Source: Bacteroidales bacterium (GTDB lineage: Bacteria; Bacteroidota; Bacteroidia; Bacteroidales; UBA932). From it: a stretch of DNA of 36,363 nt. Both the position numbers and the translations under genes were made by a program. Of the stretch, positions 12,847 to 35,036 are shown piece by piece. The stretch's first letter is position 1. The number at the start of each line of letters is the position of its first letter. Under the pieces are notes generated by a model. That model had not been told where the DNA came from. It did no database searches and saw only the letters and a program-made list of their open reading frames with translations. The stretch lies in assembly GCA_017477465.1 (NCBI GenBank), contig JAFUVU010000008.1:1-36363 (forward strand), in the 5' to 3' direction.

Positions 12847-12955
12847 CCTTGACACGGATTCCCGTGATCCTCAATCACTTATGAAAATCAAGTGTGACTT
12901 TTTGCCACACTTGATTTTCGTATTTTGCTGAGTGACAGTTACTTGCGTGTCAAGG
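12847..12955. repeat. Nested-palindrome element, copy 1
   Basis: 109 bp beginning directly after the sufD stop. Outer arms CCTTGACACG and CGTGTCAAGG pair perfectly. The inner hairpin arms are AAAATCAAGTGTG (12884-12896) and CACACTTGATTTT (12906-12918), with loop core GACTTTTTGCC. The right outer arm overlaps the 3' end of ispE (12939-12955) and encodes its last residues and stop. Confidence 0.9.
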
Positions 12956-13772
12956 CGAAAAGGGCGCTGCCGCTGCCGCTCATCGAGGCGTAGGCGGCGC
13001 CTTTGGCGTATAGGCCGGCCTTGATTTCCGCGAGCCTTGGGTGGCGCGCGAAGACCGTGGCCTCGAAGTCGTTCACAAGATCCTGCCTCCAAGTGTCGAG
13101 CGGCTGGGTCAGCACTTCGCGCAGGGCCTTGTCAGGGATGCGGGGCGTTATTCCGCGGTACGCATCGGCAGTTGAGACGCTAATCCCTTCAGGGATAATT
13201 ACTTCTATATTATAGGCCGATAGATCCAGATCAAAGGGCTGGAGCACTTCGCCGCGCCCGCTTCCCAGCATAGGGCGGTTGTAAATGAAGAAGGCGCAGT
13301 CGCTCCCAAGGCGCGCGGCGTATGAGGCAAGAGCGGAGTCGGCGAGGCTGAGCCCGGCGAGTGAGGCGATCATCCTCAGCGCGAAGGCAGCATCGGCCGA
13401 TCCGCCTCCAAGGCCGGCACCTACCGGCGAAAGCTTTTCCAGGAAAATTTTCATCGGCGGCAGGTCAAAGTCTGCCGATAAAAGGCTGTATGCCTTGACA
13501 GTGAGGTCTTTAAGCGGATCCCAATCCACGCCTTCCCTTCTGGCGATGGTGATCATCAGCTTTCCGTCGGGGGTGACGTCCTGCGCCAGGGTGCCGTACT
13601 TCTTCTTCAAGTTAGCGAGGGTGCGGGAATAGTCGGTGCCGAGGACAATTTCCAGAGAGTCGGATATGCCAAAGTACGGAACGAAGAGCGTTTCCAGGTT
13701 GTGAAAACCGTCCTCTCTCTTTGAGAGAACATTCAAACCGAGATTTATTTTGACGTTTGGATGCGTTAACAT
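12939..13772 (-). CDS. ispE: 4-diphosphocytidyl-2-C-methyl-D-erythritol kinase
   Basis: 277 residues. IspE phosphorylates CDP-ME in the MEP (non-mevalonate) isoprenoid pathway. Typical GHMP-kinase features are PNVKINLGLNVLSKREDGFHNLET at the N-terminus (substrate motif with the catalytic lysine), the ATP-binding loop PVGAGLGGGSADAA, and YASMSGSGSALFAL near the end. The ATG at 13772 is chosen over the upstream one at 13829 because a TAACTTTG box ends exactly 5 nt before it and homologues begin close to the PNVKIN motif. The final LTRK and stop are encoded by the right arm of repeat element 1, so the original C-terminus has been replaced or shortened. Confidence 0.94.
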   Translation of the reverse strand: MLTHPNVKINLGLNVLSKREDGFHNLETLFVPYFGISDSLEIVLGTDYSRTLANLKKKYGTLAQDVTPDGKLMITIARREGVDWDPLKDLTVKAYSLLSADFDLPPMKIFLEKLSPVGAGLGGGSADAAFALRMIASLAGLSLADSALASYAARLGSDCAFFIYNRPMLGSGRGEVLQPFDLDLSAYNIEVIIPEGISVSTADAYRGITPRIPDKALREVLTQPLDTWRQDLVNDFEATVFARHPRLAEIKAGLYAKGAAYASMSGSGSALFALTRK

Positions 13773-13777
13773 ATTTA

Positions 13778-13785
13778 CAAAGTTA
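13778..13785 (-). promoter_or_regulatory. -7 promoter box of ispE
   Basis: TAACTTTG on the minus strand, 5 nt from the ispE ATG. The region between it and the divergent lipoprotein gene (13786-13898) shows no clear plus-strand promoter. Confidence 0.55.
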
Positions 13786-13898
13786 CTCAGAATTCGGTTA
13801 AAACAGATAAAAAGCTTATAAAACAACACTTTTTTCTAGCCGATTCTTGGATTTCAGGAGCGCATTCGCCACCTTGTCGGCAACAAAAAGTGCCCGCC

Positions 13899-15080
13899 AT
13901 GCGAAAATGGATCCTTCTTTTTCTGTTTTCCGGCGCCCTCGTCAGTTGCCGGAAACCCCTGTTCGACCCGCCTCGTCACACTTACAATCCCGGGAGAGGA
14001 AAGCAAGAATCAGCCCGGGAAGGTGAAGAGCCGCCCCTGTCTGCCTCGAGCCATGAGGTTTGGCAAACCGCCCTCTGCTTTCCCGACAGCGTCGAGTGGC
14101 GGAAAGGCTATACCGAAGGTGCGGGGCTGCTGCTCCTGAAAAGCGGCATCCCTCAAAAAGTGCTTCCCGCCGGCCCCCAGGTCACTGCCGACCACCATCG
14201 TTTCCAGGCCGGACACCTCTGGAGCGACTATACCGACGGTTTCTCAACCTTTGTTTGCTGCGACGGTGAGGAGCGCTTCCGCTTTGCCGGCGAGGAGCAT
14301 CTTCAAGGCTTTACGGTGCTGGACGGCGCGGTGCATACGCTGGGCCAATTCCCCGGCGGAGGCTTCTGCTATCGCATTGACGGACAGCCGGTTTTCACCG
14401 ACAATGCGGGCTCCCTCCTCGGCAGGGCGACAGATCCCGACTGGCCCGGCGGAGCCTTCTCGGACGGAACATATTATACCTACAGCGTGCCGATTATGCT
14501 AAACGGCCAGCCCGCCAGGGAGTACAAAGTGATGCACGGAGGAAAATTGGTGAAGGTGCTTCCGCCGCAAAATGGTGTCCAAGTGCTTGATGTAAGGGTG
14601 CTTGGCACTCAAGTGTTCCGCCTGGAAAAGCGTGGTGCCCAGCTATATTTCGCAAGTGACAAGAAACTGCAGGCCATCCCGGCAGGCGGCCAGAGCCTGG
14701 TAAATGTCGATGAGGAAATGCTGGTCAAAGGTTATACGAAAGGAAAGCCCAACCAGTACTGGATGCGCGGCATGACCGGCCTTCGTTATTGCTTCCAGTC
14801 CAATCGCGAAATCCAGTCCCTGTTCGTGGACAAAAGATTGAAAGCCGCCATCGTCCTGGACAGCGAAGGCTGTGTCTTGACTGCCGACGTAGAAGATGAT
14901 TTAACTACCTTTCCGGCAGAGACTTATGTCTTGAAAATGGAGCGCTGCGCCGCCTTTAGGGACGACTGCTTTGCCTTGGCGCTGACCGCCGATTACGGAA
15001 ACGAACATCTGGTTCAAATCGGGGATAAAGCCGTTCCCGTGCAATTTAACGGCTATTTCACAGGAATCTATTTCGAATAA
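13899..15080 (+). CDS. Lipoprotein of unknown function
   Basis: 393 residues. MRKWILLFLFSGALVSC is a lipoprotein signal with the cysteine at residue 17, followed by a Pro/Glu-rich linker to about residue 50. The mature part has repeated short beta segments with Gly and aromatic residues (for example LWSDYTDGFSTFVCCDG and GQFPGGGFCYRIDG), suggesting a beta-propeller-like fold. I do not recognise a family. The ATG at 13899 is preferred to the GTG at 13890. It ends 3 nt before comM, so the two are probably co-transcribed, though nothing in comM explains a link to the envelope. Confidence 0.75.
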   Translation: MRKWILLFLFSGALVSCRKPLFDPPRHTYNPGRGKQESAREGEEPPLSASSHEVWQTALCFPDSVEWRKGYTEGAGLLLLKSGIPQKVLPAGPQVTADHHRFQAGHLWSDYTDGFSTFVCCDGEERFRFAGEEHLQGFTVLDGAVHTLGQFPGGGFCYRIDGQPVFTDNAGSLLGRATDPDWPGGAFSDGTYYTYSVPIMLNGQPAREYKVMHGGKLVKVLPPQNGVQVLDVRVLGTQVFRLEKRGAQLYFASDKKLQAIPAGGQSLVNVDEEMLVKGYTKGKPNQYWMRGMTGLRYCFQSNREIQSLFVDKRLKAAIVLDSEGCVLTADVEDDLTTFPAETYVLKMERCAAFRDDCFALALTADYGNEHLVQIGDKAVPVQFNGYFTGIYFE

Positions 15081-15083
15081 GTT

Positions 15084-16643
15084 ATGATAGTCAATATTCA
15101 TGGAGCTAAATGCATAGGTATCAACGCAATACCTGTAACTGTAGAAGTAAACATCACCCTTGGCGTCGGCATCCACCTGGTAGGTCTGGCCGATGCGGCG
15201 GTAAAGGAAAGCCTGCTGCGGACGGTAACGGCCCTCCAGGCGCGCGGCTTCCACGTGCCTGGGAAGAAGATAGTCATAAATCTGGCACCCGCCGATCTTC
15301 ACAAGCAAGGCAGCGGCTACGACTTGCCGATAGCCCTGGGCATCATTGCGGCATCGGCCCAACATTCTCTTCCAGGCTTGGAGAAGTATCTGATAATGGG
15401 CGAGTTGGGCCTCGACGCCAGCATCCGTCCCGTGAGCGGTTCCCTGCCGATGGCGGAGCTGGCGCGACAGCTCGGGTACAGGGGGTGCATACTGCCGGAG
15501 GTATCGGCCCTTGAGGCGGTGGACTGCACGGGGGCGGAAATCTACGGCGTCAAAAATCTGGACGACGTGCTGCGAATCCTGGACGAAGAAGAGGATGCAT
15601 CGGACCTGCTCATCTGGAACACGGAAGCATACAGGCAGGCAATGGAAAAGCCCCGCAGCGACCTAGCCAACTTCATGGACTTTGCCGATATCATCGGCCA
15701 GGAAGGGGCGAAGCGAGGGGTGGAAATCGCATCGGCCGGGCAACATAATGTTCTTCTTCTCGGTGCTCCGGGGAGTGGGAAAAGCTCTATAGCTAAGGCA
15801 CTTGCGGGTATCCTGCCGCCCATGACTCTGGAGGAAAGCCTTATCACTTCCAAAGTCTATTCAGTAGCGGGCCGATCCTCCGGCGGCGTCGGCCTTCTGC
15901 GCACGCGGCCGTTCAGGGCACCGCATATATCGGCCTCAAAGGCGGCCATGCTAGGCGGCGGAAGCGGGGAAAACATTCTGCCCGGGGAAGTGTCCCTGGC
16001 CACCAACGGCGTGCTGTTCCTGGACGAATTCTGCGAGGCTCCGAAAGGCACTCTGGAAGCGCTTCGCGGACCGCTCGAAGACCGTCGCGTCATAATTTCC
16101 CGCCTCAAGGCTAAGGTCGAATACCCGGCTTCCTTCATGCTTGTCGCGGCCTCAAACCCTTGTCCCTGTGGCTATTACGGCGAAGGCGACCGCTGCACCT
16201 GCTCCCCCGGCGTGCGCCTGGCATACCTTTCCAAACTGTCGGGCCCGATCATGGACCGCATCGACCTTCAACTATGGATTCATCCCGTTCAGACATCGGC
16301 CCTGGTCCGTGGCGGAAAAGGGGAGTCATCGGCCGATATTGCCGCGCGCGTGCTGCGTGCCCGCCAGATACAGAGAAAGCGCTTCGAAGGCAGCGGCATC
16401 TTCTGCAACGCCGAGATGAATTCCAAGCAACTGGAAAGATTCTGTCCGCTGGATGATGAGTGTAAAGAATTGCTGGAGAGGCTGATAGACCGCCTCGGCC
16501 TTAGCGCCCGCGCCTTCACCCGCATAGTCAAAATGGCCCGCACCATCGCCGACCTCGCCGCCAGCCCCGACATCCGCCCCGAGCATCTCTCAGAAGCCTC
16601 CAGCTACCGTTTCCTTGACCGCAGAAATATACTGGAGTTGTAG
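15084..16643 (+). CDS. comM: ComM/YifB-family Mg-chelatase-like AAA+ ATPase
   Basis: 519 residues, typical of the family. The N-terminal domain (GVGIHLVGLADAAVKESLLR; KIVINLAPADLHKQGSGYDL) is a Lon-protease-like fold. The AAA+ core follows with Walker A LLLGAPGSGKSSIAK, Walker B GVLFLDEF, sensor and Mg-chelatase segments (FRAPHISASKAAMLGGG; AASNPCPCGYYG with a CPCG motif). A C-terminal lid with LSARAFTRIVKMARTIADL completes it. In other bacteria ComM is a hexameric helicase that helps integrate DNA during natural transformation. No other competence gene is visible here. The hicA promoter begins within its last codons. Confidence 0.93.
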   Translation: MIVNIHGAKCIGINAIPVTVEVNITLGVGIHLVGLADAAVKESLLRTVTALQARGFHVPGKKIVINLAPADLHKQGSGYDLPIALGIIAASAQHSLPGLEKYLIMGELGLDASIRPVSGSLPMAELARQLGYRGCILPEVSALEAVDCTGAEIYGVKNLDDVLRILDEEEDASDLLIWNTEAYRQAMEKPRSDLANFMDFADIIGQEGAKRGVEIASAGQHNVLLLGAPGSGKSSIAKALAGILPPMTLEESLITSKVYSVAGRSSGGVGLLRTRPFRAPHISASKAAMLGGGSGENILPGEVSLATNGVLFLDEFCEAPKGTLEALRGPLEDRRVIISRLKAKVEYPASFMLVAASNPCPCGYYGEGDRCTCSPGVRLAYLSKLSGPIMDRIDLQLWIHPVQTSALVRGGKGESSADIAARVLRARQIQRKRFEGSGIFCNAEMNSKQLERFCPLDDECKELLERLIDRLGLSARAFTRIVKMARTIADLAASPDIRPEHLSEASSYRFLDRRNILEL

Positions 16644-16668
16644 AATGTTAGAAAAAATACTATCTTTG
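16637..16668 (+). promoter_or_regulatory. hicAB-tsaE promoter
   Basis: GTTG at 16637-16640, 20 nt, then TATCTTTG at 16661-16668; the hicA ATG follows after only 2 nt. The transcript would start at or within the first codons, so initiation on hicA may be inefficient. Confidence 0.55.
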
Positions 16669-16670
16669 CA

Positions 16671-16859
16671 ATGAAGTACTCGGAAATACATAAGAAGTTG
16701 CGAGAAGCGGGGTGCTATATCTTGAGAAACGGGGCTAGTCACCCTGTGTGGAAGAGTCCTATCACAGGTAAAACATTCCCGACAAGTTATCATGAAGCAA
16801 AAGAAGCAAAAAAAGGAACCGTAAAAGAAATTGGAAGATTATCCGGAGTATCCCTATGA
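16671..16859 (+). CDS. hicA: HicA-type mRNA interferase toxin
   Basis: 62 residues with the double-stranded-RNA-binding-like HicA fold: MKYSEIHKKLREAGCYILRN, then GASHPVWKSPITGKTF carrying the catalytic histidine, and a C-terminal GTVKEIGRLSGVSL. HicA cleaves mRNA and tmRNA when not neutralised by HicB. The gene overlaps hicB by 4 bp. Base composition is clearly more AT-rich than the flanking comM and tsaE, consistent with later insertion of the pair between them. Confidence 0.88.
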   Translation: MKYSEIHKKLREAGCYILRNGASHPVWKSPITGKTFPTSYHEAKEAKKGTVKEIGRLSGVSL

Positions 16860-17266
16860 GAACAGTAACTGCCATTATTGAAACAGGTCCTGACCACAAG
16901 TTTTCCATTTACAGTTGTGGTGCTGACAATCTACCCTATGGTGTCCTTGGAACCGGGGATACCATCGCAGAGGCTAAGAAGGATTTTATGATTGCTTACC
17001 AAGAAATAAAGGAAACTTTCCTAGAAAGGAACGAAACGTTTGAAGAAGTCACTTTCTCATTCCGTTACGATATCCCTTCATTTCTTGAAGAGTTTGCTTA
17101 TGCATTTACCTTGGCAGGCCTGGAAAGAATAACCGGTATTAATCAGAAGCAGTTGGGACATTATGTCAGCGGATATAGAAAACCATCGCAAAAAACCATT
17201 CGTAAGATGGAAGAAGGAATCCATCGCTTCTGTGAACAATTAGGCATGATCCATTTTGCATCATGA
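16856..17266 (+). CDS. hicB: HicB-type antitoxin
   Basis: 136 residues. The N-terminal partial RNase H-like fold (IIETGPDHKFSIYSCGADNL ... GTGDTIAEAKKDFMIAYQEI) binds the toxin. The C-terminal half carries a helix-turn-helix (ERITGINQKQLGHYVSGYRKPSQKTI) for autoregulation. Order toxin-antitoxin is the usual HicAB order. Its stop overlaps the tsaE start by 4 bp, so tsaE translation may depend on antitoxin translation. AT-rich like hicA. Confidence 0.88.
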   Translation: MRTVTAIIETGPDHKFSIYSCGADNLPYGVLGTGDTIAEAKKDFMIAYQEIKETFLERNETFEEVTFSFRYDIPSFLEEFAYAFTLAGLERITGINQKQLGHYVSGYRKPSQKTIRKMEEGIHRFCEQLGMIHFAS

Positions 17267-17688
17267 ATCATTCAATCAATATCGCCTCTATCGAGGACCT
17301 GCCCCGCGCGGCGGCGGAGTTTTTGGAAGCTATCGGCCAGAATAAGCTGATTGCTTTTTATGCGCCGATGGGTGCCGGCAAAACCACCTTTACGACAGCC
17401 GTTTGCAAAGCGCTGGGCGTCCAGGAAGACGCTATCAGTTCTCCGACTTTCGCCATCGTGAACGAATACCGCGCTGCCGGTGGCCGGCCGATTTATCACT
17501 TCGACTTCTATAGGATAGAAACTCCGGCCGAGGCGCTGGACATCGGCCTTTACGACTATCTGGATTCCGGCGAGCTCTGCCTCATGGAATGGCCGGAAAA
17601 CATCGAACCCCTCCTCCCGGAAGAAACCCTCCGTGTCCAAATTCAAGTCTCCCCAGACGGCACCAGAACCCTAACCTGGGCCTCCTAA
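17263..17688 (+). CDS. tsaE: tRNA threonylcarbamoyladenosine biosynthesis ATPase TsaE
   Basis: 141 residues. TsaE is the essential ATPase that resets the TsaBD complex making t6A37 in ANN-decoding tRNAs. Walker A is YAPMGAGKTTFTTAVCKALG, followed by SSPTFAIVNEYR, YHFDFYRI and LMEWPENI with the Walker B-like acidic residue, all in the expected order. The ATG overlaps the hicB stop. The stop codon directly abuts repeat element 2. Confidence 0.95.
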   Translation: MNHSINIASIEDLPRAAAEFLEAIGQNKLIAFYAPMGAGKTTFTTAVCKALGVQEDAISSPTFAIVNEYRAAGGRPIYHFDFYRIETPAEALDIGLYDYLDSGELCLMEWPENIEPLLPEETLRVQIQVSPDGTRTLTWAS

Positions 17689-17797
17689 CCTCGACACGCA
17701 AATAGCTGATACTCAGCAAGATGCTGAAATCAAGTGTGGCAAAAAGTCACACTTGATTTCTGGAAGTTGTTGACTATCAGGAGGTTGCGTGCCACAG
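17689..17797. repeat. Nested-palindrome element, copy 2
   Basis: Starts directly after the tsaE stop. Outer arms are CCTCGACACGCAA and TTGCGTGCCACAGG. The inner hairpin is GAAATCAAGTGTG (17726-17738) with CACACTTGATTTC (17748-17760), loop core GGCAAAAAGTC. Sub-palindromes of the CTGA-n3-TCAG type flank the hairpin on both sides. Confidence 0.88.
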
Positions 17798-17800
17798 GGC

Positions 17801-17840
17801 CACGCTGCCACGCTGCCACGCTGCCACGCTGCCACGGTGC
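17801..17840. repeat. 8-bp tandem repeat (CACGCTGC x5)
   Basis: Four exact CACGCTGC units and a fifth with one change (CACGGTGC). It lies between element 2 and the 3' end of the EnvC-like gene and is non-coding. The short array could vary in copy number. Confidence 0.85.
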
Positions 17841-17853
17841 GAAGAAGCGGAAA

Positions 17854-19065
17854 TTAGTCCCGCAGCCAGGTTTCCGGGTTCTGGGGGGTGGTGCCTTTCC
17901 AGAGTTCGAAGTGGAACAGGTCTTCGCCACCGATGGTATCGACTATGCCGACAACATCGCCGGTGCTGACTTTCTGGCCGACTTTGACCGCCACGCTCTT
18001 GAGTTTGGAATAAAGGGTGAAATATTCCCCGTGGCCAACCAGGACGCACTGATTGTAACCGGGCAGCACCACGATCTGTGTCACTTTGCCGTTGAAGACT
18101 GCCTTTGCCTGTGCACCGGACTTTACGGCCAGCGTAACGCCATTATTCTGAGGCAGTTCCACGTTTTGGTAAACGGGGTGATTGTGCTTCCCGAAGCGTT
18201 CAACCACAGCGCCTTCCACCGGCCATGGCAGCCGGCCCTTGTTGGAGGCGAATTCGTTGGAAAGCTTGGTATCGACAACTGTGGATGTGGTCTTGCCGGG
18301 AGCCTTGCCGCCGGATTTGCCGGATGATCCCTTCGCCGCGGCCGCCTGCTGGCGGATAAGCTCGGCAATGCGTCTGTTCAGGGCCTCCTTCTGCCGATTC
18401 TTCTCCTGCAGCTGGGCCTGATACTTCTTGCGGTCCTTGTCAAGCTGCGACACCAGCCGGGACGCGTCGGACTCTTCCCCCTTCAGATGTTTGCGCTCGA
18501 GAGCAACTTTGCTGCGCATATCGGCAGCCGATGCCCTGAGCCCGTCCAGCCTCTCTTTCTCGACGGCCAGCTGTGCCGACATCTCCCGAAGTTCCACGGC
18601 CTGGCGGTTCATATCGGCCGACAAGCCGCGAAGATAACTTGCCCTCCGGAGCCCCTGGCCGATGGATTCGCTGGCGAGGATGTACATGTACCACAGCCTG
18701 CTGTCGCGGTTTTTGTACGCCCCGCGCACCAGCCTGCCGTAGTAGAGGGCCAGCGTGTCGTGCCTTGCCTGGAGGCGGTCCATCTCGCGCTTGCAGACGC
18801 GCAGCGAATCGTCCAGAAGGCCGATGGTGGCGTCGCACCCGGCGATGAGCTTTTCGCGCGCCTGGATCTTGCTCCGCAGTAGCGTCAGGTTCCCCAGGGC
18901 GGCTGTATTGCTTTTGGCATTCTGCTCCAGCTTGCGGTTGAGAAGGGCGATGTCTTTTTCAAGCTGAGCCCGCTGGCTTTCCAGTCTTTTCATGGAAGCC
19001 TTCTGCCCCCACAGGGGGGACAGGCTCAGCACTAGGGCCGCAAGTATGCAGATGACTTTTCTCAT
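17854..19065 (-). CDS. EnvC-like murein hydrolase activator with degenerate M23/LytM domain
   Basis: 403 residues. After a signal peptide (MRKVICILAALVLSLSPLWG) come two long coiled-coil stretches (about 22-110 and 160-245), a low-complexity Gly/Ser/Lys linker, and a C-terminal LytM/M23 domain (about 285-403: LPWPVEGAVVERFG to LFHFELWKGTTPQNP). The metal-binding residues of active M23 peptidases are incomplete: the HxG...D region reads GKHNHPVYQNVE, and the later HxH is replaced by YSKL. In EnvC and NlpD this degeneracy goes with a role as amidase activator at the division site. Its ATG overlaps the stop of the TPR gene by 4 bp. Confidence 0.88.
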   Translation of the reverse strand: MRKVICILAALVLSLSPLWGQKASMKRLESQRAQLEKDIALLNRKLEQNAKSNTAALGNLTLLRSKIQAREKLIAGCDATIGLLDDSLRVCKREMDRLQARHDTLALYYGRLVRGAYKNRDSRLWYMYILASESIGQGLRRASYLRGLSADMNRQAVELREMSAQLAVEKERLDGLRASAADMRSKVALERKHLKGEESDASRLVSQLDKDRKKYQAQLQEKNRQKEALNRRIAELIRQQAAAAKGSSGKSGGKAPGKTTSTVVDTKLSNEFASNKGRLPWPVEGAVVERFGKHNHPVYQNVELPQNNGVTLAVKSGAQAKAVFNGKVTQIVVLPGYNQCVLVGHGEYFTLYSKLKSVAVKVGQKVSTGDVVGIVDTIGGEDLFHFELWKGTTPQNPETWLRD

Positions 19066-20693: not shown

Positions 20694-20698
20694 AAATG

Positions 20699-20706
20699 CA
20701 AAAATA
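20699..20706 (-). promoter_or_regulatory. -7 promoter box of the TPR-envC operon
   Basis: TATTTTTG on the minus strand, 5 nt before the TPR-gene ATG. A T-rich stretch with TTTTTG lies upstream at closer than ideal -33 spacing. Confidence 0.5.
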
Positions 20707-20814
20707 CGGGTTTTGTCAAAAACTACCAAGAACACTTCCTGCTTTCTGATTTTTTTTCGAAATTTGTCTTTGGTAAAACAAAATCCGCGCCTTTTGAAAC
20801 GTTTTGGGACAAAA

Positions 20815-25046: not shown

Positions 25047-25553
25047 ATGAAAATCAGAGTATTAGACATAATCGAGCAAACAATGGCCGACGGACCCGGT
25101 TTCCGGACGGCCATTTACTGTGCCGGCTGCTCCCACCATTGCAAAGGCTGCCACAACCCACAGAGCTGGGATTTTGACGCCGGCCGATGGATGGAAGTGG
25201 ACGACCTCCTTGACATAATCAAGGCCGATTCTATGTCCAACGTCAGCTTCTCCGGCGGCGACCCTTTCTACCAGGTCGAAGCTTTCACCGAGCTTGCCCG
25301 CCGCATCAAGGAAGAGACTTCCAAGACCATCTGGTGCTGGACCGGATTCACGCTTGAGGAGATTCAGTCATCGGCCCGATTGTCACAGCTTCTGCCTTGG
25401 CTGGACGTGCTGGTGGACGGCCCCTTCATCCTTGAACAGCGTGACACGGACCTCCTCTTCCGCGGCAGTCCCAACCAGCGCATCATCTACCTCCACGGCG
25501 CCCCTGCCGAAGACGACATCCCCGGCACCGTCCCCCTTGAACCCCTCCGCTAG
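25047..25553 (+). CDS. nrdG: Anaerobic ribonucleotide reductase activating enzyme (radical SAM)
   Basis: 168 residues, normal for NrdG. It generates the glycyl radical on NrdD using SAM and a 4Fe-4S cluster. The cluster motif is C-x3-C-x2-C at Cys28, Cys32 and Cys35 (CSHHCKGCHNP). VSFSGGDPFYQ and WCWTGFTLEE are SAM-binding and structural motifs; LVDGPFILEQRD and FRGSPNQRII follow as usual. The open frame extends 64 codons upstream into nrdD, but the extension translates a palindromic repeat; homology begins at the ATG at 25047. Its stop directly abuts repeat element 3. Confidence 0.95.
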   Translation: MKIRVLDIIEQTMADGPGFRTAIYCAGCSHHCKGCHNPQSWDFDAGRWMEVDDLLDIIKADSMSNVSFSGGDPFYQVEAFTELARRIKEETSKTIWCWTGFTLEEIQSSARLSQLLPWLDVLVDGPFILEQRDTDLLFRGSPNQRIIYLHGAPAEDDIPGTVPLEPLR

Positions 25554-25663
25554 CTCGACACGCAACCCCCTGGCTCTCAGCGAAATATGAAAATCAAGTG
25601 TGGCAAAAAGTCACACTTGATTTCAAGGAAATTGTTGATACTCAGACACTTTCGTGTCAAGGG
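25554..25663. repeat. Nested-palindrome element, copy 3
   Basis: Begins directly after the nrdG stop. Outer arms are CTCGACACGCAA and TTCGTGTCAAGGG. The inner hairpin is AAATCAAGTGTG (25591-25602) with CACACTTGATTT (25612-25623), loop core GGCAAAAAGTC. It is followed by the separate terminator of mdh. Confidence 0.88.
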
Positions 25664-25672
25664 TATGGACGC

Positions 25673-26777: not shown

Positions 26778-26810
26778 TTTGTTTTAATTGCAAAAAATGA
26801 GTTATCTTTG
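26778..26810 (+). promoter_or_regulatory. Promoter of the structured leader RNA / phosphopantetheinyl transferase
   Basis: TTTG at 26778-26781, 21 nt, then TATCTTTG at 26803-26810. Transcription would start near 26816, about 170 nt before the next gene. Confidence 0.6.
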
Positions 26811-26825
26811 TGTCGTAAAATTGTA

Positions 26826-26978: not shown

Positions 26979-26984
26979 TTTATA

Positions 26985-27623: not shown

Positions 27624-27628
27624 AAAAA

Positions 27629-27735
27629 CCTTGGCACGCAACCGCCTGACAATCAACAAGATCCTGAAATCAAGTGTGGCAAAAAGTCACACTTGATTTT
27701 TATAATTGGCTGAGCTGTAGATATTTGCGTGCCAC
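27629..27735. repeat. Nested-palindrome element, copy 4
   Basis: Outer arms TTGGCACGCAA and TTGCGTGCCAC carry G-C where other copies have A-T (GGCACGC/GCGTGCC instead of GACACGC/GCGTGTC), a compensated change. The inner hairpin is AAATCAAGTGTG (27667-27678) with CACACTTGATTT (27688-27699). Confidence 0.88.
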
Positions 27736-27760
27736 GCTTTTTCTCTTTCATAAAAAGTAG

Positions 27761-27768
27761 TACCTTTG
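27761..27768 (+). promoter_or_regulatory. -7 promoter box of sdaA
   Basis: TACCTTTG exactly 5 nt before the sdaA ATG at 27774, implying a leaderless mRNA. A T-rich stretch takes the place of the -33 TTTG. Confidence 0.55.
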
Positions 27769-27773
27769 CGGCC

Positions 27774-28979
27774 ATGCATTCACTGAGAGAACTATATAAG
27801 ATAGGCATGGGGCCTTCTTCTTCGCACACGATGGGACCCAACAATGCCGCGCACATATTCGCAGAGCGTCATCCCGATGCCTGCCGATTCGAGGTCTTCC
27901 TCTACGGCTCCCTGGCCGCCACGGGCAAGGGCCACATGACCGATGTGGCCATCCTGGAAGCTCTGGAGCCGGTAGCCCCCGTCACACTGCACTGGGAGCA
28001 TGGGCACTTTCTTGAATATCATTCCAACGGCATGCAGTTCAAGGCATTCAGTGCCGATGACACCCTTCTGGAAGACTGGACCGTCTATTCCATCGGCGGC
28101 GGCGCCCTCTCGGAGGGACCGGGAAAGGAAATGAGCAAATCCGGCGATGTTTACTGGATGAACAGCCTATCCGAAATCATTGAATGGTGCGACAAGAACG
28201 GCCGCAGTATATGGGAATATGTGGACTTGTCGGAAGGGCCCGGCATCTGGGATTACCTGCAGGAATGCTGGGAAGCCATGAAGGAGTCCGTGGAAAGAGG
28301 TTTAAGTGCCGAAGGCCGGCTCCCCGGCCCGCTCAACCTCCCCCGCAAGGCGGCGGTGTATCATGTGAAAGCGCTTGGATATCAGCCCAATCTGCGCTCT
28401 CGCGGCCTTGTGTTCGCCTATGCCTTGGCAGTCAGCGAGGAGAACGCAGCCGCCGGCCGGATCGTCACAGCGCCCACTTGCGGTTCTTCAGGCGTGATGC
28501 CTGCGGTGCTGTATCACCTCGCCCGCGGCCATTCCTTCAACGACGAGCGCATCCTTCACGCCATGGCAACGGCCGGCATAATCGGCAATGTTGTCAAGCA
28601 GAATGCCTCCATTTCAGGGGCCGAGGTCGGCTGCCAGGGAGAAGTGGGCGTCGCCTGTGCCATGGCATCGGCCGCTGCATGCCAGCTCTTCGGCGGCAGT
28701 CCCTACCAAATTGAATATGCGGCGGAAATGGGCCTTGAGCACCACCTGGGCATGACTTGCGACCCGGTTTGCGGCCTGGTGCAGATCCCCTGCATCGAGC
28801 GTAACGCCTTCGCCGCCACCCGCGCCCTGGATTCCAATATCTATTCGACCTTCTCCGACGGACGCCACCGCATCTCCTTCGACCACGTCGTGGACGTGAT
28901 GAAGCGGACCGGTAAGGACCTGCCGTCCCTGTATAAAGAGACATCGGCCGGCGGTCTGGCGCTGAATTACAAGATATGA
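27774..28979 (+). CDS. sdaA: L-serine dehydratase, iron-sulfur type, single chain
   Basis: 401 residues. It deaminates L-serine to pyruvate and ammonia using a 4Fe-4S cluster. The beta-type N-terminal domain ([19 protein letters not shown]) and the alpha-type catalytic domain ([56 protein letters not shown]) are fused in one chain, as usual in Bacteroidota. The cysteines in APTCGS and CDPVC...PC are cluster ligands in this family. The ATG at 27774 is chosen over the longer frame because the conserved start SLRELYKIG follows it and a -7 box precedes it by 5 nt. A terminator hairpin lies 36 nt downstream. Confidence 0.94.
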
Positions 28980-29014
28980 ACACGCGCGCATGAGAGAGCG
29001 CATCGGCAATAAGA

Positions 29015-29048
29015 AAAGAGGACACCCTTGCTGTTTGGGCGTCCTCTT
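29015..29048. terminator. Terminator hairpin after sdaA, probably bidirectional
   Basis: AAGAGGAC-A-CCC pairs with GGG-C-GTCCTCTT around an 8-nt loop. The T-tract is better on the minus strand (CTCTTTTCTT) than on the plus strand (CTCTTTGTG). The rest of 28980-29296 is non-coding and AT-rich, with promoter-like boxes on both strands. Confidence 0.75.
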
Positions 29049-29103
29049 TGTGTACAACAATAAAAGGATCTAAAACTTCTAACTATATGGCGTTTGACTG
29101 ATA

Positions 29104-29135
29104 CAAAGGTAGGGGGATTTTCTCCGCCGGGCAAT
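29104..29135 (-). promoter_or_regulatory. Minus-strand promoter-like pair upstream of a terminator
   Basis: On the minus strand ATTG (29135-29132), 20 nt, then TACCTTTG (29111-29104). A transcript from here would run only about 80 nt to the hairpin at 29048-29015, so this could be a small RNA gene. No protein frame is evident. Confidence 0.3.
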
Positions 29136-29239
29136 ACCAATAAATAGGGATTAATGGCATTGCCGATACTAACATGTGGACTGCATATTTGTCAAAAAGG
29201 AGAAAATAAACCTATTTCGGCACATTTTTTGTCGATTTC

Positions 29240-29270
29240 TTTGCCGATTAGTAAAAAGTGCGTAAATTCG
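29240..29270 (+). promoter_or_regulatory. Promoter of the outer membrane protein gene
   Basis: TTTG at 29240-29243, exactly 19 nt, then TAAATTCG at 29263-29270. The leader to the ATG at 29297 is about 20 nt and A-rich, typical for Bacteroidota translation starts. Confidence 0.65.
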
Positions 29271-29296
29271 CACCCGCTTAACAAAATTCAAAAAAG

Positions 29297-29980
29297 ATGA
29301 AAAAAATTTTTGCAACTGTTCTCTCCGCAGCAATGCTGCTTATGGGAACCCAAGCCTTCGCCCAACTCTCCGTCGGCGCCGGCTATCTCAATTCTCAGAA
29401 CATCACCAAAGTTGGCGACAACGATCCTCGTAAAGTTGACATGAACGGCTTCTATGCCGGAGTTAGTTACAACATTCCCATTGTTGCAGGCCTCGGCATC
29501 GCTCCCGGTATTTACGGTTCGGCATCTTTTAATGGTCACGAAGACAAGGTAGCAATTTCTGCTGTGGAAGGCGCACGAAAGGCTACAACCACTGAAGTTG
29601 ACCTGAACGTTCCGGTAAATCTCACCTACAAATTCAATCTTACCCGTGACTTGGATTTATTTGTCTATGGCGGTCCCATCTTCCAGTATGCCCTTTCAAA
29701 TAAGACAAATTACAAATATACATCCAATGTCAACACTATACAGGGCGTTTTGGATGATGCTGTAAAAAACGGCCTCCTTCCCAAGCAGCAAGACAACTTC
29801 TCCGGTGACGACAACCCCATCAACCGCTTCAACGTTTATGTAGGTGGTGGTGCAGGCATCGAAGTGAGCGGCATCCAGGTCATGATCGGCTACGACTATT
29901 GCGTAACCAACATGGTAAAGACCGAGGACATGAGCTCCCACCGTTCCCAGATCAAAGTCGGCGTAGGCTACGCCTTCTAA
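29297..29980 (+). CDS. Small outer membrane beta-barrel protein
   Basis: 227 residues: a signal peptide (MKKIFATVLSAAMLLMGTQAFA) followed by alternating strands of an OmpA-membrane/OMP_b-brl-type barrel (LSVGAGYLNSQ; NGFYAGVSYNIPIVAGLGIA; LFVYGGPIFQYAL; NVYVGGGAGIEVSGIQVMIG) and a terminal IKVGVGYAF ending in Phe, as expected for barrel insertion. Probably eight strands. Function unknown; such barrels are abundant surface proteins in Bacteroidales. It resembles the minus-strand barrel at 34226-34831 in length and ending (KIGVGYIF), so they may be paralogues. The stop lies 1 nt before repeat element 5. Confidence 0.85.
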   Translation: MKKIFATVLSAAMLLMGTQAFAQLSVGAGYLNSQNITKVGDNDPRKVDMNGFYAGVSYNIPIVAGLGIAPGIYGSASFNGHEDKVAISAVEGARKATTTEVDLNVPVNLTYKFNLTRDLDLFVYGGPIFQYALSNKTNYKYTSNVNTIQGVLDDAVKNGLLPKQQDNFSGDDNPINRFNVYVGGGAGIEVSGIQVMIGYDYCVTNMVKTEDMSSHRSQIKVGVGYAF

Positions 29981-29981
29981 A

Positions 29982-30090
29982 CCTCGACAAGCAAATAGCT
30001 GAGTATCAGCAAATTATAGAAATCAAGTGTGGCAAAAAGTCACACTTGATTTTCATTATTGGCTCAGTGTCAGGGGGTTACGTGTCAAGG
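29982..30090. repeat. Nested-palindrome element, copy 5
   Basis: 109 bp. Outer arms are CCTCGACAAGCAA and TTACGTGTCAAGG. The inner hairpin is AAATCAAGTGTG (30020-30031) with CACACTTGATTT (30041-30052), loop core GGCAAAAAGTC. Sub-palindromes CTGAGTATCAG and TCAGTGTCAG flank it. Confidence 0.88.
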
Positions 30091-30114
30091 TTGGGCGCAT
30101 CCCTATTAATGGGG

Positions 30115-30160
30115 ATTGCTTTTGCGCGGCGGCTTGCGTACCTTTGCGCTTGCAAAGCGC
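30115..30160 (+). promoter_or_regulatory. feoAB promoter with a perfect inverted repeat at the start site
   Basis: ATTG at 30115-30118, 20 nt, then TACCTTTG at 30139-30146. From 30146 the sequence is GCGCTT-GCA-AAGCGC, a perfect 6-bp inverted repeat over the predicted transcription start. It could be an operator for a metal regulator or a 5' RNA hairpin; it is not a recognisable Fur box. Confidence 0.5.
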
Positions 30161-30171
30161 AATTGTAAACT

Positions 30172-32568
30172 ATGAAACTTGCAGATTTGGCAACCGGCGA
30201 AAAGGCCGTGATTGTTCGTGTGAATGGTCACGGCAGTTTTCGTAAGCGCCTCATAGAGATGGGGTTCATCCAGGGAAAGGAAGTGAGGGTGGTGCTTAAT
30301 GCACCGCTCAGGGACCCCATTGAGTACGAGATTATCGGCTATAAAGTATCCCTAAGGCGGGAGGAAGCCCGTCAGATAGAGGTCGTTACGGAGGAAGAAG
30401 CCCGCGAAGCCCTTGTAAGCGACGAACACCTGCAGGCCCTCCCAGGCGACATGGAAGATGCGGAAAGGCTTAACAGAGCCCTCGCCCATGTGGCCGAAGA
30501 GCGGCATCACAACATTCGCGTAGCCCTTGTCGGCAATCCAAACTGCGGAAAGACTTCACTTTTCAACATCGCCTCCGGCAGCCACGAGCACGTGGGCAAC
30601 TATTCCGGCGTCACTGTCGATGCCAAGGAAGGCCATTTCAAGTTCAAAGGCTACGATATCACCCTTGTCGATCTTCCCGGGACATATTCCCTCAGCGCCT
30701 ATTCCCCGGAGGAGCTGTACGTGCGCAAGAATCTTCTGGAAGCAATGCCCGACGTTGTGGTGAACGTAGTGGACGCCTCCAACATAGAGCGTAACCTCTA
30801 CCTTACCACCCAGCTCATCGACATGAACCTCAGGACCGTAATGGCCCTGAACATGTACGACGAGCTTCAGCACAAAGGCGACAAGCTGGACATCAAGCAG
30901 TTAGGCTATCTTCTGGGCATGCCTGTATGTCCGACGGTGAGCCGCGACGGACAGGGCATCCCGGAGCTTTTCGACACGGTCATCGCCATTTATGAGCAGT
31001 CGAATCCCAAGCTCTCGCGCCACATCCACATCAACCATGGGGCCGATATAGAAAAAAGCATCGGCAGGCTGCAGACAGTGCTCAAAGGGAACGAGCAAAT
31101 CCGCTCCCGCTACTCCACTCGCTACCTGGCTATCAAGTATTTGGAGGCCGATAAAGACGTAGAGCATATCCTGTCGGCAATCCCGGAATACGCAGCTTTG
31201 GAGCAGGCCCGCCGGGAGGAAGAGACCCGGATTCGTGAGCTTGTGGGGCAATCGGCCGAAAGTGCGATAGTGGACGCAAAATACGCATTCATCCAAGGCG
31301 CCCTGGCCGAAACCTACGAAAAATACCAGGAAGAGCGTCCCCGGCGCACCATCACCGACCGTATCGACGCCATCGTCACCAACCAGTGGGCGGCCTTCCC
31401 CATCTTCGTGCTGCTTCTTTGGTTCATCTTCTGGGCGACCTTCACCGTCGGGCAATATCCCATGGACTGGATAGACGCCGCAGTCGCCTGGCTGGGCGAA
31501 AAAGTGGGTTCCTGGATGGCCGATGGCTGGCTCCGCGACCTAGTGGTAGACGGCATTATCGCCGGCGTCGGCAGCGTGCTTGTGTTCCTGCCCAACATCA
31601 TGATCCTGTACTTCTTCATATCGATCATGGAGGACAGCGGCTACATGGCGCGCGCTGCGTTCATCGTGGACAAGCTGATGCACAGGATCGGCCTGCATGG
31701 AAAGAGCTTCATCCCCATGGTGATGGGCTTTGGCTGCAATGTGCCTGCGATTATGGCCACCCGCAGCATCGAGAGCCGCAAAAGCCGGCTGGTCACCATC
31801 GCCATCATTCCCTTCATGTCCTGCGCGGGCCGATTGCCGATTTTCGTGCTCTTCGCCGGAGCGTTCTTCCCCCATAATCCCGCCACGGCGCTGCTGGGAA
31901 TCTACCTTTTGGGCGTTGTGATGGCTATATTGTCGGCCCTTGTGCTGGGGAAATTCGTCAAGGACGACGACCTTCCCTTCGTGATGGAGCTTCCGCCGTA
32001 CCGCGTCCCCACCGGCAAGGCGATTTGGCGGCACACCTGGGAAAAAGGCAAGCAGTACCTCGAGAAGATGGCTACCACGATCCTCATCTTCTCCGTCGTC
32101 ATCTGGGCGCTGGGTTACTTCCCGCGTCATGAGGGCGCCACGACGGCTTATCAGCAGGAGCATTCTTATATCGGCACCATCGGCAAGACTATCGAGCCTG
32201 CGCTTGAGCCGCTGGGATTCAACTGGAAGATGGACATCGGCCTGCTGGCTGGTATCGGGGCTAAGGAATTGGTTATTAGCACTATGGGCGTCACATACGC
32301 ACAGGATGGCGAGGAGTACGAAGGCCTGGGCTCGGAGGATGATACTGCGTTGCAGTCGGCCCTTAAAGCTACGGTGCCCACTGCGGCGGCGCTGGCCTTC
32401 ATGGTCTTTGTGCTGCTGTATTTCCCCTGCATCGCCACCTTCGTAGCCATCAAGAACGAAACGCACTCCTGGTGGTGGGCGATCGGCCTCGCCGTATATA
32501 CCATCCTCGTCGCCTGGCTCTGCGGTTTCGCCGCCTTCCGCCTCGGCCTCCTAATCTGGCCGATATAA
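30172..32568 (+). CDS. feoAB: FeoA-FeoB fusion ferrous iron transporter
   Basis: 798 residues. The N-terminal FeoA SH3-like domain (about 1-75: MKLADLATGEKAVIVRVNG ... IEYEIIGYKVSLRREEA) is joined by an acidic linker to FeoB. The G-protein domain has G1 GNPNCGKTSLFN, G2 in NYSGVTVDAKEG, G3 DLPGTYSL and G4 NMYDE. The membrane part carries the two gate cores, with MGFGCNVPAIMATRS and GIGAKELVISTMGVTYA typical. It imports Fe2+ across the inner membrane under anaerobic conditions. The fusion is usual for Bacteroidota. The leader is about 25 nt with an inverted repeat at the start site. The stop lies 1 nt before repeat element 6. Confidence 0.96.
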   Translation: MKLADLATGEKAVIVRVNGHGSFRKRLIEMGFIQGKEVRVVLNAPLRDPIEYEIIGYKVSLRREEARQIEVVTEEEAREALVSDEHLQALPGDMEDAERLNRALAHVAEERHHNIRVALVGNPNCGKTSLFNIASGSHEHVGNYSGVTVDAKEGHFKFKGYDITLVDLPGTYSLSAYSPEELYVRKNLLEAMPDVVVNVVDASNIERNLYLTTQLIDMNLRTVMALNMYDELQHKGDKLDIKQLGYLLGMPVCPTVSRDGQGIPELFDTVIAIYEQSNPKLSRHIHINHGADIEKSIGRLQTVLKGNEQIRSRYSTRYLAIKYLEADKDVEHILSAIPEYAALEQARREEETRIRELVGQSAESAIVDAKYAFIQGALAETYEKYQEERPRRTITDRIDAIVTNQWAAFPIFVLLLWFIFWATFTVGQYPMDWIDAAVAWLGEKVGSWMADGWLRDLVVDGIIAGVGSVLVFLPNIMILYFFISIMEDSGYMARAAFIVDKLMHRIGLHGKSFIPMVMGFGCNVPAIMATRSIESRKSRLVTIAIIPFMSCAGRLPIFVLFAGAFFPHNPATALLGIYLLGVVMAILSALVLGKFVKDDDLPFVMELPPYRVPTGKAIWRHTWEKGKQYLEKMATTILIFSVVIWALGYFPRHEGATTAYQQEHSYIGTIGKTIEPALEPLGFNWKMDIGLLAGIGAKELVISTMGVTYAQDGEEYEGLGSEDDTALQSALKATVPTAAALAFMVFVLLYFPCIATFVAIKNETHSWWWAIGLAVYTILVAWLCGFAAFRLGLLIWPI

Positions 32569-32569
32569 A

Positions 32570-32678
32570 CCTCGACACATAAGTCCCTGTCCCTCAGCGA
32601 CTTGTTGAAATCAAGTGTGACTTTTTGCCACACTTGATTTTAGCATTTTGCTGATTATTAGGTGTTTGCGTGTCGAGG
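32570..32678. repeat. Nested-palindrome element, copy 6
   Basis: Outer arms CCTCGACAC and GTGTCGAGG pair perfectly (copy 1 pairs equally perfectly with T-A in place of C-G). The inner hairpin is AAATCAAGTGTG (32608-32619) with CACACTTGATTT (32629-32640), loop core in the GACTTTTTGCC orientation. The right arm contains the TTTG that serves as -33 box for nhaC. Confidence 0.9.
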
Positions 32679-32694
32679 ATTTTTCTTACCTTTG
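32665..32694 (+). promoter_or_regulatory. nhaC promoter, partly inside element 6
   Basis: TTTG at 32665-32668, in the right arm of element 6, then 18 nt, then TACCTTTG at 32687-32694. The leader to the ATG at 32718 is about 20 nt. Confidence 0.55.
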
Positions 32695-32717
32695 CAGTCC
32701 CCAACGAACTGTTGTTT

Positions 32718-34043
32718 ATGGCTATCCATACTGAAAATACCGAGCATCGCTCTACGAGCGGCAAAAAGATGAACGGCTGGCTGGCGCTGAGCCCCCTCTT
32801 TGTGTTTCTGGCTGTGTATCTGGCCGGCAGCCTGGTGGCGCACGATTTCTACAAAGTGCCTGTGGCTGCGGCGTTTATCATAGCATCGGCCTACTCTTTC
32901 CTGATTACGAAAGGGGTCGATAAGACCGACGACAAGATTGCCATCTTCTCCGAGGGCGCGGGCAACCGCAACGTGCTGATGATGATATGGATCTTTGTGC
33001 TGGCGGGGGCCTTTGCCGCTACGGCCAAGGATATCGGCGCCATCGACGCCACTGTGAACGCAACGCTGCGCGTACTGCCGGGCAAGCTCATCTATGCGGG
33101 CCTTTTCCTTGCCGCGTGCTTCATTTCCATGGCCATCGGCACGTCCGTAGGAACAATCGTAGCACTTGTGCCGATAGCAAGCGGCATAGCGGCCGAGACC
33201 TCAATCTCCCTGCCGTTCATAACTGCGATTATCGTCGGCGGTGCGTTCTTCGGTGATAATCTGTCGTTTATCTCCGATACGACCGTGGCGGCGACAAAGA
33301 CCCAGGGCTGCTCGATGCGGGACAAGTTCAAGGTGAACCTGTGGATTGCGGCACCGGCGGCTCTGCTGGTCACCGTGCTTTATGTGATCCTGGGGCTGTC
33401 GGTCGAGGCTGCGCCTGTTGCAGGGGCCGTCCAATGGGTGGGGCTGGTGCCTTACCTTCTGGTCATCGGCCTGGCGCTGGCGGGGGTCAATGTCGTTACG
33501 GTGCTGGCTATCGGCATCGGCGTTAATGGTGTTATCGGCTGGCTTACAGGCGCTTACGATTTCGTTGGGTGGATGGCTTCCATCGGCGGAGGCATAGGGT
33601 CGATGGGCGAGCTCATAATAGTGTCGCTGCTGGCCGGCGGTCTCCTTGAGATGATTCGCTACAATGGAGGCCTGCAGTTTATCATCGGCTCGCTTACGCG
33701 CCGCATTTCTGGGCCGAGGGCGGCGTCGTTTTCCATTGCCGGGCTTGTGTCGCTCGTGAATCTTTGCACCGCCAACAATACCATTGCCATCATTACCGTG
33801 GGGCCTTTGGCACGGGATATATCGGCCCGATTCAATCTTGACCCCCGAAAAACCGCCTCCATCCTGGACACCTTCTCCTGCCTGATCCAGGGCATCATTC
33901 CCTATGGTGCGCAGATGCTTATGGCGAGCGGACTCTCCGGCGTGTCGGCCGTCTCGATAATCGGCTACCTCTACTATCCTTTTGTCCTGGGCCTGGTGGC
34001 CATCCTGTCAATCCTCCTCCGCTTCCCCAGGAAGTACTCCTGA
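32718..34043 (+). CDS. nhaC: NhaC-family Na+/H+ antiporter
   Basis: 441 residues with about eleven or twelve hydrophobic segments. Family-typical stretches: ISMAIGTSVGTIVALVPIAS, GGAFFGDNLSFISDTTVAAT with acidic residues in the membrane, and LVNLCTANNTIAIITVGPLA. The protein exchanges Na+ (or, in relatives, amino acid anions) against protons at the inner membrane. I start at the ATG at 32718; the longer frame from 32670 translates the arm of element 6 and the promoter. The stop lies 5 nt before repeat element 7. Confidence 0.9.
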   Translation: MAIHTENTEHRSTSGKKMNGWLALSPLFVFLAVYLAGSLVAHDFYKVPVAAAFIIASAYSFLITKGVDKTDDKIAIFSEGAGNRNVLMMIWIFVLAGAFAATAKDIGAIDATVNATLRVLPGKLIYAGLFLAACFISMAIGTSVGTIVALVPIASGIAAETSISLPFITAIIVGGAFFGDNLSFISDTTVAATKTQGCSMRDKFKVNLWIAAPAALLVTVLYVILGLSVEAAPVAGAVQWVGLVPYLLVIGLALAGVNVVTVLAIGIGVNGVIGWLTGAYDFVGWMASIGGGIGSMGELIIVSLLAGGLLEMIRYNGGLQFIIGSLTRRISGPRAASFSIAGLVSLVNLCTANNTIAIITVGPLARDISARFNLDPRKTASILDTFSCLIQGIIPYGAQMLMASGLSGVSAVSIIGYLYYPFVLGLVAILSILLRFPRKYS

Positions 34044-34048
34044 TGCGC

Positions 34049-34157
34049 CCTCGACACGGAAATCACTGACTATCAGCGAAATATGAAAATCAAGTGTGAC
34101 TTTTTGCCGCACTTGATTTCAGGAAGTGCCTCACTGTCAGGGACTTGCGTGTCAAGG
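34049..34157. repeat. Nested-palindrome element, copy 7
   Basis: Outer arms CCTCGACACGGAA and TTGCGTGTCAAGG. The inner hairpin AAATCAAGTGTG (34087-34098) pairs with CGCACTTGATTT (34108-34119); the single change is G-T compatible. Loop core GACTTTTTGCC. A classical terminator for the opposing gene lies just beyond it. Confidence 0.88.
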
Positions 34158-34164
34158 GTGGGGC

Positions 34165-34202
34165 GAAAAAATACCCCCGTAAAGCGGAGTGCTTTGCGAG
34201 GG
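34165..34202 (-). terminator. Rho-independent terminator of the minus-strand barrel gene
   Basis: On the minus strand CCCTCG-C-AAAGC pairs with GCTTT-A-CGGGGG around ACTCC, followed by TA and a T-run (34171-34166). Confidence 0.75.
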
Positions 34203-34225
34203 CAGTTTTTTATATGGGCCGATGG

Positions 34226-34831
34226 CTAGAAAATGTAGCCGACGCCGATTTTAAGCTGATTGCGGTTGATTCCGAGGCGGGAAGTCGTGCTCATGTTCAG
34301 GAGGCCGAAGTCGAAGCCTACGTTGACGTGAATCATCTGGGCCACCTCGATGCCGGCGGCAAGGCCGAGGTACAGGTTGAAGGGATTGCGGGAAACTCCG
34401 GTGTTGTTGTCACCATAGAGCCTGTAGCTGTTGTTGCCATCCTTGGCGCGCAGGTCCAAACCATACTGTAGGGTGGGGCCGAAGAGGCCATAGATGCTGA
34501 AGTCGTTGGTTATCTCATAGGTGTAGCGTGCGTGCACGGGGATATTTATGCCGATTTCGCTGATGTTGTAAGGCAAAATAGCCAAATGCTCCTTGCCGAA
34601 GAGCAGTGAAAGGTTGGCGCCGGGTTCGACAGACAGACCTTCTACAAGATTGTAGAGGCTGATGTTGTACTTTGCGCCGAGGTATGCACCGTCAAGGCTG
34701 AAACCGTCGGCGGATGAGTCATTCCATTTGAAACTCTCCATGGCGTGCATGAAGCCGCCATCGGCCCTAAGCTGGGCATTTGCTTGCAGGCCAATTAACA
34801 TGGCAGCTGCGATGATTAGCAATTTTTTCAT
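34226..34831 (-). CDS. Small outer membrane beta-barrel protein
   Basis: 201 residues with a signal peptide (MKKLLIIAAAMLIGLQANA) and an alternating-strand barrel: SLDGAYLGAKYNISLYNLVE, IGINIPVHARYTYEI, FSIYGLFGPTLQYGL, FNLYLGLAAGIEVAQMIHV, and a terminal LKIGVGYIF. Same class as the 29297 gene; likely eight strands, function unknown. It is transcribed toward nhaC and has its own terminator at 34165-34202. A TAAATTTG box lies 37 nt upstream of the start. Confidence 0.85.
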   Translation of the reverse strand: MKKLLIIAAAMLIGLQANAQLRADGGFMHAMESFKWNDSSADGFSLDGAYLGAKYNISLYNLVEGLSVEPGANLSLLFGKEHLAILPYNISEIGINIPVHARYTYEITNDFSIYGLFGPTLQYGLDLRAKDGNNSYRLYGDNNTGVSRNPFNLYLGLAAGIEVAQMIHVNVGFDFGLLNMSTTSRLGINRNQLKIGVGYIF

Positions 34832-34868
34832 TTTCGTATTTCTGTTATAAGTTTTGCGTTCTGGAACA

Positions 34869-34876
34869 CAAATTTA
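34869..34876 (-). promoter_or_regulatory. -7 promoter box of the minus-strand barrel gene
   Basis: TAAATTTG on the minus strand with a leader of about 35 nt. No clear -33 TTTG is seen. Confidence 0.45.
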
Positions 34877-34927
34877 ACTATAATTTCGGAATAATTGTGA
34901 AAAAACGAGCCCGCACCCCTCAAAAAA

Positions 34928-35036
34928 CCTCGACACAGATGTCTCTGACTATCAGCGAAATATGAAAATCAAGTGTGGCAAAAAGACACACTTGATTTCA
35001 GGAAGTGGCTCACTGTCAGGCAGTTGCGTGCCGAGG
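34928..35036. repeat. Nested-palindrome element, copy 8
   Basis: Outer arms CCTCGACAC and GTGCCGAGG (one mismatch). The inner hairpin is AAATCAAGTGTG (34966-34977) with CACACTTGATTT (34987-34998); the loop GGCAAAAAGAC differs from the other copies by one base. It lies 6 nt beyond the stop of the minus-strand gene at 35043. Confidence 0.88.

Follow-up and report, generated by a model that had tools for sequence, protein, structure and literature searches.

A family of 109-bp palindromic elements in a Bacteroidales genome, probably mobilised by RAYT-like transposases

The stretch analysed here, positions 1 to 36,363 of contig JAFUVU010000008.1 of a Bacteroidales gut bacterium (assembly GCA_017477465.1; hereafter the window, 36,363 nucleotides (nt) long), carries eight copies of a palindromic element of about 109 bp. 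The elements are probably (at a probability of about 0.8) non-autonomous relatives of the REPINs, the hairpin-forming doublets of repetitive extragenic palindromes (REPs), mobilised by a cognate transposase of the HUH/Y1 type that resembles the REP-associated tyrosine transposases (RAYTs). The family has the build of a REPIN doublet: two inverted repeats, present in many copies and mostly extragenic. RAYT-like genes flanked by the repeats that they would serve were also found, both in this genome and elsewhere in the genus.

Architecture of the family and its link to RAYT-like genes

A covariance model built from the eight window copies was searched over the 2.42-Mb genome, as had been proposed in the first-pass annotation of the window, and matched at least 74 places (147 cmsearch rows). 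One of these, C10:52965, was dropped (33 bits, within a coding frame), leaving 73 credible copies; scoring covered 150 of 439 first-look candidates, and some copies may be missed. The length is nearly fixed: 109 bp in 64 copies, 110 bp in eight and 111 bp in one. Each element consists of two inverted half-sites, an outer arm ending in TAA and then CTGAnnnTCAG, placed around one core hairpin. Aligned in a single orientation, the window copies share this architecture of core hairpin, outer arms and variable middle. Averaged over pairs of the 73 copies, identity is highest in the core (97.4%), lower in the outer arms (76.3%) and lowest in the middle (54.4%). A GT[AG]G tag at the foot is absent from the consensus of this type, and its exact core found no match in a contig database from which near genomes have possibly been left out.

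Three related RAYT-like genes, on contigs C17, C9 and C8, were found in this genome by a protein search with the C17 gene. The C9 gene reaches into an element of the window type, with its stop about 21 nt past the edge; no element is found directly upstream, the next one being about 730 nt away. The C17 gene has elements on either side (50.1 and 17.8 bits with model R1), with other cores, and the C8 gene is flanked by two elements with a third core. In the genus, 63 unique RAYT loci were scanned; an element-like palindrome is present in a flank at 44 of them, while 6 of 378 shuffled flanks gave one. It lies upstream at 31 loci, downstream at 29 and on both sides at 16, and six of the 44 positive scans were judged doubtful by eye. 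For 14 named relatives of the C9 gene, scanned without a shuffled control and with less than 750 nt of upstream sequence at two loci, an element lies at the 3' end of the RAYT in 11, further upstream in 11 and in at least one of these places in 12. A RAYT-like gene, as suggested in the first-pass annotation, is thus present and, through the flanking elements at RAYT loci, tied to the family.

The two components also occur together. Across 37 genomes of the genus, 20 have both a RAYT and elements detected by model R1, two a RAYT only, three elements only and 12 neither (p=1.8e-5), at a RAYT cut of E<1e-40 that was chosen after the list was seen. The same count at E<=0.001 gives 22, 5, 1 and 9 (p=1.4e-4).

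The HxH motif and Y118 are invariant in 23 aligned proteins. The C17 protein reaches 24.3 bits with the Y1_Tnp profile (PF01797, cut-off 23), and two named C9-type relatives reach 25.1 and 28.8. NF047646 REP_Tyr_transpos is matched by every one of the 14 named C9-type RAYTs at E<=0.01 (best 5e-14), and this family is the sole NCBIfam match for each of the three own proteins. C9-type proteins, 304-315 residues long, carry DHxH and YxxNN, with an extension of roughly 150 residues past the Y1 region. Against the PDB, the C17 RAYT alone had no match, and a profile of 14 RAYTs gave two weak ones, the best to the IS200-like 2ec2 at E 0.17. Relatives of the C17 RAYT occur in 42 of 61 genomes of the genus sample. 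The 14 named C9-type relatives come from uncultured Bacteroidales or Bacteroidia; a Treponema origin of the window, which the TDE1717 family names had suggested, was therefore rejected. In a sample of 149 genomes from across the order, the own genome was the only one with a relative of the C9 RAYT.

A conserved gene of about 200 residues stands upstream of the RAYT at all 14 named C9-type loci (L240-L253) and at the own one (L039:11494-12135), and among the other RAYT loci scanned it is found beside C9-type RAYTs only. Three companion proteins scanned against Pfam gave no match above the cut-off, and a companion protein compared with the PDB gave none.

An ordinary miniature inverted-repeat transposable element (MITE) of a DDE transposase, with old copies decayed, would equally have inverted ends, many copies and sites that are empty in sister genomes. 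Decay, however, would strike all positions, whereas the core has hardly varied and 64 of 73 copies have one and the same length; moreover, the linked genes look HUH/Y1 and not DDE (a DDE gene between own-type ends was not searched for). Of the origins considered, this is the least credible.

Divergence, half-sites and occupancy in sister genomes

Of 61 genomes, 24 gave matches to model R1: 23 of the 37 in the genus, the own genome included, and, weakly, one of the 24 outside it. The sister elements keep length and skeleton, with different arms and cores, and genome G006 holds several families. In sister G005, with about seventy copies (109 bp in 62 of the 64 kept), all 11 of the elements first read share the core of the element at the RAYT end, although ten lie away from the RAYT, and carry the arm CTGG on at least one side. 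Some G005 elements are clustered, with starts about 124-155 bp apart (C18:22038-22414, C148:8793-9156, and on C92, C180, C64 and C160).

When 38 families are aligned, the most alike positions are A12, A13, T19, A27 and T34 (89 to 97%), while arm positions 6-10 and most positions of the core stem vary freely; the alignment was anchored on CTGAnnnTCAG, which partly favours the columns of that motif, and A12, A13 and T34 lie outside the anchor. An anchor score of 5 is found in 66 of 76 halves against 14 of 76 shuffled halves. Over these hand-filtered families, RAYT identity is weakly correlated with core similarity (r 0.24, p 2e-4) and arm similarity (r 0.13, p 0.013), but not with similarity of the middle (r 0.08, p 0.12).

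A two-part address code can tentatively be proposed, in which the RAYT would read an outer word (about positions 6-10) and a core-stem word of about ten bases, set on the common skeleton of TAA and CTGAnnnTCAG. The same proposal, equally doubtful in this part, would have a fast-changing RAYT, whole genomes that switch code when their RAYT changes, in part at unchanged gene ends, and selection that bars the perfect palindrome.

Pairing between the two arms was examined in the 73 copies. At nearly every varying pair it is at or below the level of shuffled partners, and it is worse at several middle positions. The identity of the middle between the two halves is 0.478 within an element and 0.541 between elements, and none of 5000 shuffles was as low. 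Selection on the pairing of a long stem was rejected, as covariation was not found. Because the arms pair no better than shuffled ones and the halves differ, the half-sites seem, from their sequences, to act independently of each other, and elements appear to stay short of a perfect palindrome, perhaps because long perfect palindromes are unstable.

Independent half-sites, a fixed length and a variable middle would also suit binding sites for a chromosome-organising protein that uses palindromes. Against such a role stand the uneven spread of the copies, with eight in the 36-kb window contig and one in the 148-kb contig C56, the other core and arm in a close sister, and the linkage to RAYTs; it is very improbable.

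At the window sites read in sister genomes, an element is present at the end of the phosphopantetheinyl-transferase-like gene in 0 of 7, of feoB in 1 of 5 and of the antiporter gene in 0 of 3; apart from feoB, all sites so read were judged empty. Occupancy thus mostly differs, which fits mobile elements. The occupied feoB end, in G019, holds an element of another family, and the same end in G005 holds none. The antiporter end of G005 gave a scan match (8/13 outer and 10 inner pairs) without the skeleton and was counted as empty. Of 64 G005 elements, 20 map to places at most 250 nt from an own element; another 13 match by a flank at a place with no own element close by, and for 31 no flank match was found. 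The mapping searched about a fifth of the own genome, chosen around elements, and does not give a genome-wide rate.

Swapping of the core in place was considered for 17 pairs at matching sites of this genome and G005 and is not supported: in the orientation predicted by the flanks, the identity of the middle is at background, 0.492 against 0.500 (P 0.71). In the opposite orientation there is a small post hoc excess of the middle (0.538, P 0.006; 0.533, P 0.02 when each own site contributes a single pair), which may be an inverted trace.

The C9 locus is syntenic with the G005 C18 locus, except that the RAYT segment is inverted. Identity between the two RAYTs is 55.6%, while four other G005 genes with long matches are 81 to 93% identical. 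The inverted segment comprises RAYT and element (L039:10331-12673 vs L127), and other breaks in gene order near elements were seen on G005 contigs C148, C184 and C49.

Placement at gene ends and possible roles

Relative to genes, called with a simple home-made caller, 35 of the 73 copies lie in convergent gaps, 29 in tandem gaps, four in divergent gaps, four at contig edges and one, C15:43384, in an open frame that reads through it. The statement in the first-pass annotation that no copy lies in a divergent gap therefore holds for the window but not for the genome. For 57 of the 68 classifiable copies, a gene 3' end is no more than 10 nt away, where 31.9 would be expected if they were placed at random in these gaps; none of 20000 placement simulations exceeded 43, the highest value reached. 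The bias is also visible in gaps that exceed the element by 60 nt or more (21 of 31 copies near a 3' end vs 3.3 expected). TAA makes up 41 of the 53 stops that border an element on its outside, compared with 160 of 321 elsewhere (p 2e-4).

The RAYT would bind the half-sites as single-stranded DNA, cut and join at the element ends, and place copies at gene ends; the single-strand cutting is proposed by analogy with the protein family. The core hairpin, built as A-tract, stem and T-tract, may terminate transcription on both strands, so that an insertion just past a stop codon would do no harm or might even help. The position bias would then follow if less tolerable insertions were lost and the system had a taste for TAA. 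A terminator role of the core is plausible because the cores are stable hairpins with T-rich 3' sides (mean -20.2 kcal/mol over the 38 families, and a T-rich 3' side on 43 of their 76 strands).

Several observations weigh against mobilisation by RAYTs or against parts of this scheme. The flank scan found no element at 19 of the 63 RAYT loci. A search of the genome with the Y1_Tnp profile recovered the C17 gene only: the C9 and C8 genes were found by their 42% and 49% identity to it and score 17.7 and 18.1, below the cut-off of 23. All three proteins also stay below the equivalog cut-off of 80 of REP_Tyr_transpos (36.6, 32.8 for C9 and 32.0), and the range over the four proteins read out is 32.0 to 44.7 bits. 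The correlations between RAYT and element families are weak, as noted above. No transposition event, footprint or target duplication was established. The T-rich stretches on 43 of 76 family strands are compared with 36 of 290 controls that are probably mostly gene sequence, and the terminator idea is drawn from sequence only. In sister G005, a stop is found no more than 10 nt away for 16 of 34 isolated copies, where 11.8 would be expected (of 64 copies examined there, six lie in called genes, nine at edges, three in divergent gaps and 15 in clusters); gene calls are less sure on its short contigs. The stop-codon bias is therefore not general.

Host-maintained bidirectional terminators, or stabilisers of mRNA 3' ends, each preserved by selection at its gene and with an incidental or domesticated RAYT, are a possible alternative, if a doubtful one. 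The placement behind stops, above all in convergent gaps (34 of 35 copies within 10 nt of a 3' end vs 24.3 expected), speaks for them, as does a core that is 97.4% identical beside a middle at 54.4%. A T-rich sequence 3' of the core is found on 145 of 146 own strands, a count that is not independent because the core is common to all copies. Terminators, however, can do without a common sequence, whereas core and arms are the same throughout a genome and change from species to species; the window sites are mostly empty in sisters and the stop bias is weak in G005.

Control of translation, by a hairpin that stalls ribosomes at the gene end, has a model in the E. coli REPs within 15 nt of a stop codon (PMC12306157), and the 57 of 68 copies within 10 nt of a 3' end would agree with it. 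In the accessible part of that source, 446 of 4,072 predicted E. coli REPs lie that close to a stop, so such control is not the general purpose of REPs; with the weak bias in G005, this role appears unlikely.

Compared with these alternatives, mobilisation by a cognate RAYT remains preferred. The first-pass annotation had taken constant length and position as signs of function rather than of random insertion: the position bias is real in this genome, but the sites mostly differ in sisters, and function and insertion are compatible with each other. Dozens of transposase-element pairs with one skeleton and different keys, in one genus, form a natural data set for target recognition by RAYTs. They also offer a test of the replacement of selfish-palindrome populations between close species, and of whether the host gains terminators.

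The window copies and comparison with known systems

All eight copies reported in the first-pass annotation are present in the window, at the positions given except for one, placed at 25554, whose alignment begins at 25553: the G of a TAG stop is common to gene and element. Five are oriented one way. On the plus strand lie 17689..17797, 0 nt past the stop of the TsaE gene; 25553..25662, the only one of 110 bp, which shares that one base with the stop and has a convergent Ldh-like gene 59 nt further on; 27629..27737, 5 nt past a phosphopantetheinyl-transferase-like gene (matches below cut-offs); 29982..30090, 1 nt past a gene for a TDE1717-like outer-membrane protein (match below cut-off); and 34928..35036, 6 nt from the stop of a minus-strand gene ending at 35043. 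The other three, with the A5 loop on the minus strand, are 12847..12955, 0 nt past a SufBD-like gene, with the stop of a convergent GHMP-kinase-like gene inside it at 12939; 32570..32678, 1 nt past feoB; and 34049..34157, 5 nt past an NhaC-like antiporter gene (match below cut-off).

The start 0-6 nt after a stop codon, as first described, is corrected to -1 to 5 nt for the seven of the eight that follow a plus-strand stop. It does not apply to 34928: the stop next to this copy is that of the minus-strand gene, which ends 6 nt past the other end of the element. The inner hairpin, called strictly kept, is near-invariant: 34049 has one substitution, and 34928 has one next to the loop. The A5 and T5 loops, presented as alternatives, are not two kinds of element but the two strands of one. 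All eight copies fold better than all of their own shuffles (z -4.1 to -10.7, ten folds), as is expected of any palindrome. With Rfam at gathering scores, a tRNA-Leu is the only match in the window, the elements being unmatched.

Two other repeats were seen in the window: a pair of 54 nt, 85% alike and unrelated to the elements (635-688 and 4090-4143), and coding repeats with a 33-bp period at 9013-9177, within the predicted gene 8257-9378.

Integron attC sites were rejected as an identity of the elements: they need a one-way cassette array, whereas the elements point either way, and 35 of the 73 have convergent genes on their two sides. A literature search, outside whose coverage lay most subscription journals, figures and supplements, showed among the papers listed none on such elements in this group. 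The accessible text of PMC6006769 describes, for Bacteroidetes, TnpAY1 subclass 2.6 (RAYT group 5), whose genes are bordered by "atypical secondary structures" that recur at other places in the genome. By length and motifs, it is set apart from the C9 type: its proteins have 179 residues with NH[LIV]H and YIH[QN]NP, against 304-315 residues with DHxH and YxxNN.

With the REPtrons of TnpAREP groups 2 and 3, as far as described in the accessible part of PMC8266576, the system shares a TnpAREP gene with cognate palindromes. The GTAG motif is central there; the window family is without the tag, and some other families here have GTAG or GTGG in the arm. The REPIN/REP-RAYT system of Pseudomonas fluorescens SBW25, in the accessible text of PMC3116915, has in common with the elements inverted hairpin doublets, tens of copies, an intergenic position, an own RAYT and some tandem clusters. 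Several published features of REPINs are nevertheless lacking, and the elements are therefore not filed as standard REPINs: in SBW25, invariant 16-mer ends enclose a less conserved spacer and compensatory changes are common, whereas in the present elements conservation is highest in the core, and compensation is absent or runs the opposite way.

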